The translations under genes and the position numbers were made by a program. From assembly GCF_004125265.1 (NCBI RefSeq), contig NZ_RDTE01000003.1, forward strand, positions 6,572,001 through 6,636,000: 64,000 bases of DNA, written 5' to 3'. Source of the DNA: Streptomyces lydicus. GTDB lineage: Bacteria; Actinomycetota; Actinomycetes; Streptomycetales; Streptomycetaceae. Positions 30,849 to 39,031 of the stretch are shown piece after piece; the first letter of the stretch is position 1, and the number at the start of each line of letters is the position of its first letter. A model generated the notes under the pieces. The model was not told the DNA's origin, made no database searches, and worked only from the letters and a program-made list of their open reading frames with translations.

Positions 30849-31496
30849 TCACCCGGCCGGAGAGCCCCCCGGACCCACCGGCCCGTCCCCCGGACCCGCC
30901 GGCCCGTCCCCCGGACCCACCGGCCCGCTCTCCGCAGCGGCGTCCGGCCCGCCCTCCGTGGCGGCATCCAGCCCCGTGACCTCCGCCAACGCTTCCTCCA
31001 GCCACTCCACCCAGAAGGTCTCCAGCCCGATCCCGGCCCGCAGCACCAGCCGCCGCAGCCGGTCCTCCGGGTCCGCCGCGGCCCCGAAATCGCGCTCCTC
31101 GATCTCCTGGTACTCCGCCAACTGCCACCGGTGCAGCGTCAGATGGCGTCGCAGCTCCTCGTCGAGCCCGGCCCGCCCCACCACCGCCGAAGCGCGCAGC
31201 CGCAGCAGCAGCGCGTCCCGGATGGGCTTGGGGTCCTGCTCGCCACCCGCCCAGCGGGTCAGCTCGGCCCGTCCCGCGGGCAGCACCTCGAACTCCTTCT
31301 TCTGCCCGCGGGACGGCTGCGCGCTCGGCAGTGCCCGGATGAACCCGGCCTGCTCCAGCTTCCCCAGCTCCCGGTAGATCTGCTGGTGCGTGGCCGACCA
31401 GAAGTAGCCGATCGACCGGTCGAACCTGCGGGTCAGCGCCAGCCCCGACGACGGCTTCTCCAGCAGGGCGGTGAGGATGGCGTGCGGGAGTGACAT
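30849..31496 (-). CDS. PadR-family transcriptional regulator
   Basis: The predicted protein has 215 residues. A winged helix opens MSLPHAILTALLEKPSSGLALTRRFD and continues FWSATHQQIYRELGKLEQAGFI, with SRGQKKEFEVLPAGRAELTRW as wing, the PadR N-domain. The C-terminal Vir-like helices include VVGRAGLDEELRRHLTLHRWQLAEY. The last 35 residues are Gly/Pro/Asp repeats (GPGDGPAGPGDGPVGPGG). It starts 28 nt after the fadH stop on the same strand, so it is probably co-transcribed with fadH and may autoregulate through the palindrome at 33596. Confidence 0.9.
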   Translation of the reverse strand: MSLPHAILTALLEKPSSGLALTRRFDRSIGYFWSATHQQIYRELGKLEQAGFIRALPSAQPSRGQKKEFEVLPAGRAELTRWAGGEQDPKPIRDALLLRLRASAVVGRAGLDEELRRHLTLHRWQLAEYQEIEERDFGAAADPEDRLRRLVLRAGIGLETFWVEWLEEALAEVTGLDAATEGGPDAAAESGPVGPGDGPAGPGDGPVGPGGSPAG

Positions 31497-31524: not shown

Positions 31525-33947
<2,423 letters not shown>

Positions 33948-34817
33948 ATGAGCACTGTGCAAGCCATCACGCCCGACCAGGTGGTCGACACCGCCCGGTA
34001 CCCCCTGTCGCAGCTCGACAGTGCCGAAGGACGGGCCGTGATCACCCGTGCCCGGCGCGAACTCGCGGCGTCCGGCTGCACCGTGCTGCCGGACTTCATC
34101 CGTCCGTCGCTCCGCGAGGCGCTGGAAGCGGAGGGCGCGGCCCTCGCGCCCCACGCGCACTACGACGTCGAGACCGTCAACGTCTACAACATCGCGGTGG
34201 ACCAGGAGCTGCCCGAGGACCACCCCGGCCGCCGGACCTTCCAGCGGGGCAATGCGTTCGTCCCCCGCGACCGCGTCCCCGCGAGCTCCCTCATCGGCAG
34301 CCTCTACTCCCACACGGCGTTCCAGGACTTCATCGCCCGCTGCTTCGGACTGCCCCAGCTGCACGAGCTGGCGGACCCGCTCTCCGGGCTGGTCCTCAAC
34401 GTCGTCGCGCCGGGCATGGAGCATCCCTGGCACTTCGACACCAACGAGTTCACGGTCAGCCTGCTCACCCGCCAGGCACAGGACGGCGGCGTCTTCGAGT
34501 ACTGCCCCAACATCAGGTCCGCCCGGGACGAGCACTTCGACGACGTCCGCGACGTCCTGGACGGCCGGGGCGAGCGGCTGACCCGGCGCCTCCCGCTGAA
34601 CCCCGGCGACCTCCAGCTGTTCAAGGGCCGCTATTCGCTGCACCGGGTGAGCCCGGTGCGCGGCGAACTCGCGCGCCACTCCGCGATCTTCGCCTACAGC
34701 GAGCGCCCCGGTGTCATCGGGAGCGTGGCCCGCACCCGGCAGCTCTTCGGCCGGGTGCTGCCCGAGCATCTGGCGGCCGAGGGCCGGGCCGTACGGGGCG
34801 ACCAACTGCTGGATTAG
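33948..34817 (+). CDS. HalD-like 2-oxoglutarate/Fe(II)-dependent oxygenase
   Basis: The predicted protein has 289 residues. The facial triad is visible as HFD (H162, D164) in PWHFDTNEFTVSLLTRQ and a distal His in YSLHRVSPVRG (H232), followed by HSAIFAY. GGVFEYCPNIRSARDE and the overall order resemble, from memory, the HalD/BesD family of amino-acid halogenases and lysine hydroxylases. The Asp of HxD is present, whereas halogenases carry Gly there, so hydroxylation is expected. The gene after it encodes a carnitine acyltransferase-family protein, suggesting hydroxylation of a lysine-derived or betaine-like substrate. AGAGGG precedes ATG 33948. Cytoplasmic; substrate untested. Confidence 0.78.
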   Translation: MSTVQAITPDQVVDTARYPLSQLDSAEGRAVITRARRELAASGCTVLPDFIRPSLREALEAEGAALAPHAHYDVETVNVYNIAVDQELPEDHPGRRTFQRGNAFVPRDRVPASSLIGSLYSHTAFQDFIARCFGLPQLHELADPLSGLVLNVVAPGMEHPWHFDTNEFTVSLLTRQAQDGGVFEYCPNIRSARDEHFDDVRDVLDGRGERLTRRLPLNPGDLQLFKGRYSLHRVSPVRGELARHSAIFAYSERPGVIGSVARTRQLFGRVLPEHLAAEGRAVRGDQLLD

Positions 34818-34939
34818 CGGCCGGCTGACGAGGACGCGCCGTCCGGCGAGGACACGCCGGCGCCGTGTGCCACCGCCCGCCCGCGCTCCCCGCAGCGGCG
34901 GACACGGTCGGTGACGGCGCGACCATGGACGAGTGACAT

Positions 34940-35003
34940 CACGGCCCAGCGGCCCACGGCCCAGCGGCCCACAGCCCAGAGGCCCACAGGTCCCACAGGT
35001 CCC
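34940..35003. repeat. Short tandem repeats between oxygenase and acyltransferase genes
   Basis: CGGCCCAGCGGCCCA recurs in tandem with small changes, then degrades to CAGCCCAGAGGCCCACAG and GTCCCACAGGTCCC. The repeats occupy most of the gap just upstream of the acyltransferase start. Confidence 0.7.
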
Positions 35004-35058
35004 CACGACCGGAATCGAGAGAGCAGAATTGAACACCCGTCAGGAAAGGCCCGCAGAC

Positions 35059-36867
35059 ATGACGACCTTCGCCCACGAGGACAGCCTGCCGCGGGTGCCC
35101 CTGCCCACACTGGAGGCCAGCGCCGAGCGGTTCCTCGCCTGGTGCGCACCGCTGCTGACCGCCGACGAGCTGGCGGCGACGGAGGCGGAGGTGGCCGCCT
35201 TCCTCCGGCCCGGCGGCCCCGGCCGGGCACTGCACGCCGCGCTGGAGGAGTACGACGCCACCGAGGGCGTCCACAGCTGGCTCGACACCTTCTGGCCGTA
35301 CCGCTACCTGGGCCGCAGGGACCGGATCGCGCTCAACGCCAACTTCTTCTTCCTCTTCCAGGACGCCGCACCCCGGCAGTCGCAGGTGGAGCGGGCCGCC
35401 GGGCTCATCGCCGGAGCCGTCGACTACAAGCGGCAGCTCGATGCGGAACTCATCCCTCCCGTGGTGCAGCGCGGCGCACCCCAGTCGATGATCCAGAACA
35501 GGTACCTGTTCTCCGCCACCCGCATCCCCGGCGCACAGCAGGACACCGTCCGCAGCCCCTACACCGACGCCTGGCCGGGCCCGTCCCGCGCCCGCCACAT
35601 CGTGGTCTTCTTCCGCGGCAACATGTTCCGGATGGAGGTGCTCGGCGCCGACGGCGTCCCGCACAGCCTCGACGACCTCGAAGCGGGACTGCGCGCCGTC
35701 CAGAAGGCCGGCGCCGAACCGGCCCCCGAGGGCACCTCGGTGGGCCACCTCACCACCATGGCCCGCGCCGAGTGGGCCGCGGCCCGGGAGTCCCTGCGCG
35801 CCGGCCACCCCCGCAACGCGGACGCCCTCGACGACATCGAGACCGCCCTGTTCTGCGTCTGCCTGGAGGACTTCGCCCCCGAGGACACCCAGCAGGCCTG
35901 CGACCAGCTGCTCTACGGCGACCGCGGCAACCGCTGGTTCGACAAGGCCGTCTCGCTGATCGTCTTCGCGGACGGCCGGGCGGGCATCAACGTCGAGCAC
36001 TGCGAGCTGGACGGCACCACCATCCTCAGCTTCACCGACGCCCTGCTCAGCACCCCCGCCGAGGAACACTCCCGCCGCTCCGGCGCCCGCCCCCAGGGGC
36101 TCCCCTCCCTGGAACCGGTCGTCTTCGAGCTGGACGACACCCTCCGAGGCCAGGTGCGCTCCGCCGCCGAGGCGTTCGCGGCGTACGGGGAGAACACCGC
36201 GACCCGGACCGTCTCCTTCGACGACTTCGGCAGCACCACCGCCAAGGCCCTGGGCTCCTCCCCGGACGCCTTCGTCCAGCTCGCCTACCAGCTCGCCCAC
36301 CAGCGCGCCAAGGGGCACCTCGGCGCCACCTACGAGTCGATCGCCACCCGCCAGTGGCGGCGCGGCCGTACCGAGGCGATGCGGGTGGTCACCCCGGAGA
36401 TCCAGGCGTTCGTCGGCGCGATGGAGGACCCGGCGGCCGACGCGGACACCCGCCGGGCCGCCTTCCGCGCCGCCGCCGCCCGGCACGTCGCCCGCGCCAA
36501 GGAGTGCCAGGCCGGCGACGCGCCCGAGCAGCACCTGTGGGAGCTGGAACTGATCCAGCGCCGCCGCGGAACGGAACTCGGCGTGACCGAGCAGCCCGCC
36601 CTCTACCGCACGCCCGGCTGGCTGACGATGCGCGACGACTACCTGAGCACCAGCTCGGCCCCGTCCGCCAACATCCAGTACTTCGGCTTCGGCTCCACCA
36701 GCAGCCGCTGCATCGGCGTCGCCTACGTCCTCCTGCCCGACCGCTTCCACCTCTACCTGAGCACGCCACTGGCCGTGGCCGACCAGATGCACACCTTCGC
36801 CGACCGCCTCCGTGAGGCGGTGACGGAACTGCGCGAGCTGCTGGCGCCGGGGGAGGGCGAGGCCTGA
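35059..36867 (+). CDS. Choline/carnitine O-acyltransferase family protein
   Basis: The predicted protein has 602 residues, the family's normal length. Visible signatures are an N-terminal LPRVPLPTLEASAERFL, INVEHCELDGT with the catalytic His (H314), TRTVSFDDFGSTTAKAL-type strand regions, and the CoA/carboxylate-side YESIATRQWRRGRTEAMR. This family transfers acyl groups between CoA and the hydroxyl of carnitine, choline or related compounds; bacterial members are uncommon. ATG 35059 is chosen, with AGGAAAGG upstream; an in-frame TTG at about 35029 is possible. It directly follows a HalD-like 2OG oxygenase on the same strand (241-bp gap with repeats), so the oxygenase could make its hydroxy-amine acceptor. 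Confidence 0.82.
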   Translation: MTTFAHEDSLPRVPLPTLEASAERFLAWCAPLLTADELAATEAEVAAFLRPGGPGRALHAALEEYDATEGVHSWLDTFWPYRYLGRRDRIALNANFFFLFQDAAPRQSQVERAAGLIAGAVDYKRQLDAELIPPVVQRGAPQSMIQNRYLFSATRIPGAQQDTVRSPYTDAWPGPSRARHIVVFFRGNMFRMEVLGADGVPHSLDDLEAGLRAVQKAGAEPAPEGTSVGHLTTMARAEWAAARESLRAGHPRNADALDDIETALFCVCLEDFAPEDTQQACDQLLYGDRGNRWFDKAVSLIVFADGRAGINVEHCELDGTTILSFTDALLSTPAEEHSRRSGARPQGLPSLEPVVFELDDTLRGQVRSAAEAFAAYGENTATRTVSFDDFGSTTAKALGSSPDAFVQLAYQLAHQRAKGHLGATYESIATRQWRRGRTEAMRVVTPEIQAFVGAMEDPAADADTRRAAFRAAAARHVARAKECQAGDAPEQHLWELELIQRRRGTELGVTEQPALYRTPGWLTMRDDYLSTSSAPSANIQYFGFGSTSSRCIGVAYVLLPDRFHLYLSTPLAVADQMHTFADRLREAVTELRELLAPGEGEA

Positions 36868-38476: not shown

Positions 38477-39031
38477 ATGGATCATCCAGAAGTACTGCTC
38501 ATCGGTGGGCGGGCCGGGGTTGGCAAGACGACGGTGGGGTGGGAGGTTTCGGCGCTGCTGCGTGCCGCGACCGTTCCCCACGCGGTCATCGATGGTGACT
38601 TCATGGGGCAGGTGCACCCGGCGCCCGAGGGGGACTCTGATCGCTCGCAGGTCACCGAAAGCAATCTGCGGGCAGTGTGGGCGAACTTCTCTCACCGCGG
38701 TTACCGCCGCCTGATCTATACGAACACGCTGAGTGTGCTGCCCGAAGCGACGGGCATGTTTGAGCGCGCTATGGGGGACGGGGTGCGGATCGTTCGAGTT
38801 CTGCTCACCGCCTCGGATGCCACCGCCCGCGAGCGGTTGCTGGGCCGGGAGCTCGGCTCGGAGCTGGAGAAGGAACTGCAAGGCAGCGTCCGCAAGGCAC
38901 ATCTCCTGGATGAGAGGGCTCCTGCTGGGACGGCGCGCGTGATGACGGACAGTCGGCTCGTGGCGGACATCGCACGGGAGGTGGTGGCCGCCACTGGCTG
39001 GACCGGTCCTGATGCCGTCGGCGGATCGTGA
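38477..39031 (+). CDS. P-loop nucleotide kinase-like protein
   Basis: The predicted protein has 184 residues. VLLIGGRAGVGKTTVGWEVSALLRAATVPH carries a Walker A (GGRAGVGKT) and AVIDGDFMGQVHP holds the acidic strand following it, as in adenylylsulfate- and shikimate-kinase-like P-loop kinases. RLIYTNTLSVLPEA and VRIVRVLLTASDATARERLLGREL form later strands and a lid-like Arg-rich helix. The phosphate acceptor is unknown. It is the first gene of an accessory-looking patch that continues with an aminotransferase relic and a NUDIX gene. Confidence 0.75.
   Translation: MDHPEVLLIGGRAGVGKTTVGWEVSALLRAATVPHAVIDGDFMGQVHPAPEGDSDRSQVTESNLRAVWANFSHRGYRRLIYTNTLSVLPEATGMFERAMGDGVRIVRVLLTASDATARERLLGRELGSELEKELQGSVRKAHLLDERAPAGTARVMTDSRLVADIAREVVAATGWTGPDAVGGS

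Follow-up and report, generated by a model that had tools for sequence, protein, structure and literature searches.

The acyltransferases that esterify carnitine and choline are best understood in animal enzymes: in CrAT, R518, T465 and Y452 contact the carnitine carboxylate, F566, W102 and Y107 lie near its ammonium, and M564 limits the length of the acyl chain, longer-chain enzymes having a Gly there; choline acetyltransferase has an Asn at the position of the carboxylate Arg. The oxygenases TMLH and BBOX of eukaryotic carnitine biosynthesis are of the TauD type. A further group of Fe(II)/2-oxoglutarate (2OG) oxygenases, that of HalB, HalD and BesD, includes halogenases, in which the iron-site Asp is replaced by Gly. 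Molecular dynamics of BesD, according to PMC13244439, puts D239, D143 and E123 at the ammonium of the lysine and R77, H137 and W241 at its carboxylate. Here we analysed a stretch of 64,000 nucleotides of Streptomyces lydicus (hereafter the window; contig NZ_RDTE01000003.1, positions 6,572,001 to 6,636,000, in a genome of 9.24 Mb) in which a HalD-type oxygenase gene is followed on the same strand by a choline/carnitine-type acyltransferase gene. Comparison with related genomes gives strong support that this pair forms the outer genes of a three-gene unit, oxygenase, methyltransferase and acyltransferase, the middle gene of which is absent in the window. We propose, with about an even chance of being right, that the unit makes a small molecule that is N-methylated, hydroxylated and esterified with a short acyl chain. 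The elements of the unit in the window are the following:

33948-34817, plus strand: Fe(II)/2-oxoglutarate oxygenase of the HalD/BesD fold group, 289 aa, PF23169 match, iron site H162-x-D164...H232
34818-35058, no strand: gap of about 241 bases between oxygenase and acyltransferase, the methyltransferase site in related loci, with none in the window
35059-36867, plus strand: choline/carnitine-type acyltransferase, start ATG at 35059, 602 aa, PF00755, with H314, Gln491 and Phe542

An earlier reading of this DNA from its sequence alone (the sequence-only reading) had made its case depend on the two families occurring together in other genomes, and they do. In a survey of 199 genomes of the genus, with the window's own genome counted in and matches called at E<=0.001, 25 genomes had an oxygenase match, 20 of them close (71-100% identity) and 5 weak (27-36%), and 21 had an acyltransferase match, 20 close (76-100% identity) and one, in G069, distant (31%). 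The close oxygenases and the close acyltransferases fall in the identical set of 20 genomes and are adjacent in 20/20, so that the pairing goes beyond chance. The sequence-only reading had missed the gene that lies between the two in related loci: in 13 of the 20 genus loci a class I S-adenosylmethionine (SAM) methyltransferase, of about 266-287 residues in the loci where simple gene calling gave a clean frame, separates oxygenase and acyltransferase.

The same arrangement extends beyond the genus. Among 396 genomes sampled across the phylum, PF00755 gave five matches, namely those of the window's genome, G247, G426, the distant protein of G334 and a fragment in G401, and in G247 and G426 the oxygenase and the methyltransferase stand beside the acyltransferase. 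A scan of named genomes with the acyltransferase alignment yielded 376 relatives; our locus counts cover the best 80 of the 376, all from Nocardia and several of them strains of one species, a sample that, being drawn with an acyltransferase query, is silent on genomes without the acyltransferase. Oxygenase, methyltransferase and acyltransferase follow one another in that order on one strand in 80/80 of these loci. Measured from the match ends, the first gap is 15-86 bases and the second 20-246 bases in 76 loci and about 1.6 kb in the other four (L187, L192, L195 and L198), each of which contains one further gene, an NDH-2-like oxidoreductase as read from the L187 translation, which we took as a lineage insertion. 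The genes flanking the Nocardia unit, read from unscanned translations as metH-like, protein kinase, HAD-like, hisE/hisG-like and proteasome-ATPase-like, were rejected as a functional clue; they mark a chromosomal site common to many of the 80 loci. From this conservation it is very likely that the three proteins serve one pathway. No description of an operon of this composition was found in the literature searched, in which subscription journals were mostly not covered, and the main text of reviews of Nocardia natural products makes no mention of carnitine, betaine, quaternary or choline.

In the window, a tblastn search of 34701-35150 found nothing at E<=10, and a methyltransferase remnant in the gap was rejected on this result; a run of short, imperfect GGCCCA-type repeats occupies 34942-35010 of the gap. 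A tree built from oxygenase and acyltransferase scatters the seven methyltransferase-free loci over three positions within the methyltransferase-bearing ones; some supports are low, and the operon gene was likely lost two to three times. A methyltransferase match is nevertheless present in all 20 pair-bearing genomes, as the 7/7 genomes without the operon gene carry a divergent homologue elsewhere, with 37-45% identity to the operon enzyme of L053. Only one of the 13 genomes with the operon gene (G024) has a second homologue besides it, and of the 179 genomes that lack the pair 40 have a homologue as well, which in G181 is a weak partial match. The stand-alone homologue of the window's genome, at G000:C3:1639046-1639840 (L101:9047-9841), is 37.6% identical to the L053 operon enzyme, compared with 53-56% between the latter and two Nocardia operon copies. 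These values do not support it as the ortholog of the operon methyltransferase, and we kept it as a possible stand-in. Displacement of the operon gene by the divergent homologue would fit this distribution; part of the co-occurrence could be explained by shared ancestry, since five of the seven genomes, the window's own and those of four relatives likewise without the operon copy, have the homologue in a common gene neighbourhood. As a separate observation, an orphan methyltransferase at L108:1514-2422 (G113), with 56% identity to the operon type, lies in a genome without an oxygenase or acyltransferase match and is possibly a relic.

Next, we compared the oxygenase with its described relatives. 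It matches the Pfam HalD model PF23169 with an E value of 3.8e-14 (53.1 bits, cut-off 26), and HalD and WelO5 are the only Pfam models that it reaches at E<=0.1, with no TauD-type match, so the link to eukaryotic-type carnitine synthesis drawn by the sequence-only reading is not borne out, in contrast to the likeness to HalD and BesD, which it had recognised correctly. An AlphaFold model of the protein (mean predicted local distance difference test, pLDDT, 87.8) aligned with HalB at Z 21.1 (root mean square deviation 3.5, 234 aligned) and with the BesD-type lysine hydroxylase 7jsd at Z 20.6; ranks 1-11 all belong to the HalB/HalD/HalA/BesD group, rank 12 falls to Z 16.3, and Foldseek also ranked the HalB/HalD/BesD group first. 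The sequence signal is much weaker than that of the fold, the profile reaching HalB at E 0.0012.

The iron ligands already assigned from the window, H162, D164 and H232, are invariant in 100/100 cassette oxygenases (20 of the genus and 80 of Nocardia, the set to which all cassette residue counts refer). HWG is seen in HalB and HalD in the alignments. As the iron site keeps its Asp (D164 in 100/100), halogenation by the cassette oxygenase was rejected and, judged by this residue, the enzyme is hydroxylase-type. For two of the three ammonium-binding acids of BesD, E123 and D143, we located the equivalents by their distance from the iron His, at -17 and +3, positions at which the aligned HalB, HalD and 7jsd have Glu and Asp. 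In the cassette oxygenases the E123 position is L145 in 97/100 (F in two, Y in one) and the D143 position is T165 in 100/100, and the carboxylate His of BesD is present as H159, three residues before the iron His, in 100/100. With H159 kept and the two acidic positions changed, the oxygenase may still bind a substrate carboxylate and probably does not bind a free ammonium in the BesD manner. A term search of PMC10187165 did not find the BesD residue names.

The acyltransferase (ACYLTRANSFERASE) matches PF00755 with an E value of 1.5e-159 (532.6 bits, cut-off 22.3) over profile positions 1-574 of 574, confirming the assignment of the sequence-only reading together with its catalytic His, H314. 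Residues were placed by alignment to the solved animal enzymes COT, CrAT and CPT2: H314, Y425, T438, S530-T531-S532, W79, Y83, F544 and K396 occur in 100/100 cassette proteins. W79, Y83, the STS motif and F544 align with what we take to be the residues of the trimethylammonium pocket, and Thr438 and Tyr425 presumably correspond to two of the carnitine-contact residues of CrAT. Three further positions, each constant in 100/100, set the cassette proteins apart: Gln491 aligns with the Arg of DRHL in COT, CrAT and CPT2, Ala440 replaces the second Thr of the carnitine-carboxylate site, and Phe542 occupies the chain-length position. Judged by the carboxylate-binding Arg, the cassette proteins would fall outside the carnitine acyltransferases proper. 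Phe542, with the chain-length rule, suggests short acyl groups as donors, and taken together the residues are those expected for the binding of a trimethylammonium alcohol and a short acyl-CoA in a site that lacks the carnitine-carboxylate anchor. Compared by eye with the residues given in PMC11852590, the catalytic His, an Asp, a Glu and one CoA lysine are apparently kept.

These residues bear directly on carnitine itself as the acceptor. A true bacterial carnitine route, from gamma-butyrobetaine (made from gamma-aminobutyrate or trimethyllysine) to L-carnitine and its acylation, would need just such a set of methyltransferase, 2OG oxygenase and carnitine-type acyltransferase, and it would account for the retained Thr438 and Tyr425 and for the beta-hydroxyacid dehydrogenase-family gene beside some close oxygenase relatives. 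We nonetheless consider it distinctly unlikely, as Gln replaces the carboxylate Arg throughout the cassette while the distant actinobacterial acyltransferases of G069 and G334 retain Arg at this position, and as the oxygenase has no match to a TauD-type model. Of the carnitine-like route suggested by the sequence-only reading, hydroxylation followed by acylation therefore still fits, and the methyltransferase of the related loci strengthens it; the part that does not hold is carnitine as the acceptor.

Two observations on acyltransferase genes stand apart from this argument. In L067 and L068 (G031 and G154) about 70-95 extra bases, in lengths divisible by three, interrupt the acyltransferase match around residue 105, an insertion specific to the lineage. 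At L070:6413-15412 (G069), the distant carnitine-type acyltransferase that keeps the Arg is flanked by a class III aminotransferase on one side and by another methyltransferase gene on the other, with a 1485-residue open frame nearby and a member of the operon-methyltransferase family about 5 kb away.

The operon methyltransferase (METHYLTRANSFERASE) is harder to place. A Pfam scan of three operon copies returned no match for one and weak general methyltransferase matches below the cut-offs for the other two, and sequence scans of NCBIfam and the PDB returned nothing. In a fold test, a model of the N. cyriacigeorgica enzyme (pLDDT 90.1) showed the class I fold, with a best Z of 13.0 and query-normalised template modelling (TM) scores of at most 0.45 among the matches listed (the best 50), which comprise small-molecule C-, N- and S-methyltransferases. 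The C-methyltransferases head the Z list, as would be anticipated if the three enzymes acted on one non-quaternary small molecule, for instance a hydroxylated amino acid that receives first a methyl group on carbon or oxygen and then an acyl group on oxygen; free amino acids are indeed the substrates of the solved enzymes nearest to the oxygenase. This explanation is unlikely, though we would keep it in view: the trimethylammonium-pocket positions W79, Y83, STS and F544 are kept in the acyltransferase, the oxygenase lacks two acidic residues for a free ammonium, and the gene neighbours of its relatives, described below, indicate methylated compounds in that branch.

Additionally, we examined the oxygenases outside the cassette. 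The 396 phylum-wide genomes gave 19 oxygenase matches, 16 of them outside the cassette and two of these very weak, and at four of the 14 non-cassette loci fetched the neighbour is Fae, the formaldehyde-activating enzyme (three by Pfam, at E 2e-37 or better, and one by similarity). An extended search in two families covered 120 and 121 genomes, of which 25 and 58 had matches, and 57 loci, not every match, were fetched; oxygenases whose best match is one Fae-linked protein were called the Fae-linked type. Fae is adjacent in 35/35 fetched rows of this type (33 distinct loci, 29 of them not among the four that prompted the test). Of the fetched loci, the 18 whose oxygenase is nearest to that of the cassette show no Fae match: seven adjoin a beta-hydroxyacid dehydrogenase-family gene, one an M24 gene and ten neither. 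Two further loci closest to an M24-linked query, one of them the query's own locus, have M24 adjacent, and two fragment loci among the 57 gave no match. The Fae-adjacent oxygenases include L230:7127-8487, L231:2277-3604, L232:7587-8920 and L235:7184-8502, together with the Fae rows among L239-L295.

Through the formaldehyde release that it implies, this gene company points to demethylation of the substrate by the Fae-linked branch, which together with Fae would be a candidate new pair for formaldehyde-releasing demethylation; for the cassette it serves as no more than a hint that oxygenases of this group naturally act on methylated compounds. If the cassette oxygenase itself were a demethylase, the unit would release formaldehyde and tune the methylation of a choline-like alcohol esterified by the acyltransferase. 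The constant presence of Fae in the sister branch speaks for this explanation, which is very unlikely given that the closest relatives fetched lack a Fae match and that, within one operon, a demethylase would work against a methyltransferase.

The reading that we prefer, a short-chain ester of a hydroxylated and N-methylated small molecule, would run as follows. The methyltransferase would act first, on the nitrogen of a small amino acid or amine, and probably turn it into a quaternary ammonium of the betaine type; next, the HalD-type oxygenase would hydroxylate the carbon chain of the methylated compound with Fe(II), O2 and 2-oxoglutarate; and the acyltransferase would move a short acyl group, of the acetyl or propionyl class, from CoA onto the new hydroxyl. 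The product would resemble an acylcarnitine or acetylcholine, with the acid group missing or placed unlike that of carnitine. In the window's lineage, where the operon methyltransferase would have been lost, the divergent homologue described above may stand in. The conserved unit and its order, the lack of a methyltransferase gene between the window's two genes, the catalytic residues, the fold group and the Arg-to-Gln difference are observed here; from these we infer the N-methylation, the quaternary substrate, the order of steps, the short acyl donor and the stand-in by the homologue. A more specific version, in which Nocardia and some Streptomyces have a dedicated pathway that makes a quaternary hydroxy-betaine de novo, to be stored or exported in the form of its short-chain ester, is tentative and falls short of an even chance; 5-hydroxy-N6-trimethyllysine or 4-hydroxy-N5-trimethylornithine would be examples of such a new scaffold, named as guesses.

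Several points weigh against this proposal. With C-methyltransferases at the head of the Z list, N-methylation of the substrate would follow from the company of the gene, and the operon methyltransferase has neither a Pfam match above the cut-offs nor a close solved relative. The 37.6% identity of the window's homologue and the homologues in 40 of 179 pairless genomes make its role as a stand-in uncertain, and the seven genomes without the operon methyltransferase may amount to no more than two or three lineages that are independent of one another. Of the two CoA-phosphate lysines given in PMC11852590, one is apparently replaced in the acyltransferase, again by eye, and the missing Fae at the loci closest to the cassette oxygenase counts here as well.

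Upstream of the oxygenase, the window carries these neighbours:

33541-33947, no strand: divergent intergenic region upstream of oxygenase and fadH, presumed promoter region, from sequence read alone
31525-33540, minus strand: FadH, 2,4-dienoyl-CoA reductase, 671 aa, divergent from the oxygenase, judged incidental
30849-31496, minus strand: PadR-family regulator, fadH neighbour, PF03551 E 7.8e-9 and PF10400 E 4.7e-22

The sequence-only reading had linked the pair to fatty acid use through the adjacent fadH. The adjacency is real, and the product matches 1ps9, the 2,4-dienoyl-CoA reductase of E. coli, at E 2.9e-283; the functional link does not hold. fadH lies beside the pair in 5 of the 20 genus loci (the window, G064, G090, G137 and G194), all of them lacking the methyltransferase of the operon; the stretches fetched around the other 15 and around the 80 Nocardia loci showed no fadH. 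The gene is common in any case, being present in 77 of 101 sampled genus genomes (E<=1e-150). The PadR-family regulator occurs in the same four sibling loci and belongs to the fadH block, and a wider landmark than fadH is glnA, which is present in the window and was also seen in the stretches fetched for 10 of the 19 sibling loci, in one of them partially. On this distribution fadH was rejected as a functional partner of the pair. A fatty-acid module in which FadH works with a carnitine-like carrier acylated with long chains has in its favour the divergent fadH of the window and its place beside the pair in four relatives; it is extremely unlikely in view of the loci without fadH and of Phe542 in the acyl pocket, where longer-chain enzymes have Gly. 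Downstream, at 38477-39031 on the plus strand, a small protein resembling P-loop kinases is encoded; its Pfam matches, of the AAA_33 and zeta-toxin types, are weak and below the cut-offs.

In the more specific version, the ester would be a bacterial counterpart of acetylcarnitine or acetylcholine on a new scaffold, with the gene set complete in 80/80 of the Nocardia loci fetched. The conserved operon would give these bacteria an acyl-carrying betaine of their own, and it predicts a specific, labelable metabolite that could readily be sought. A family familiar chiefly from the metabolism and nerve signalling of animals would gain new members, and a testable substrate class would become available for a so far uncharacterised branch of the HalD-type oxygenases.

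Compared with known systems, the cassette oxygenase shares with HalB, HalD, BesD and the BesD-type lysine hydroxylase the fold group and the carboxylate His (H159), and it has HxD...H as in the hydroxylase; it differs from all of these in being only 13 to 20% identical over the structural alignments, from the halogenases among them in having the iron-site Asp where theirs is Gly, and from the free-lysine oxygenases of the BesD group in the replacement of two of three ammonium-binding acids (L145, T165). The operon methyltransferase has the class I fold in common with the small-molecule enzymes MmtN and phosphoethanolamine N-methyltransferase, both in the structural match lists, although neither is a close solved relative. 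The acyltransferase is homologous over most of its length to CrAT, COT, CPT2 and choline acetyltransferase, with the catalytic His, the STS motif and the acceptor-site Tyr and Thr, and departs from CrAT, COT and CPT2 in its Gln for the carboxylate Arg, its Ala for the second Thr and its Phe at the chain-length position. As a whole, the proposed pathway would resemble eukaryotic carnitine biosynthesis by TMLH and BBOX in the hydroxylation, and then acylation, of a trimethylammonium compound, and would differ from it in drawing on another 2OG oxygenase branch, in having a dedicated methyltransferase in the operon and in an acceptor that is probably not carnitine.

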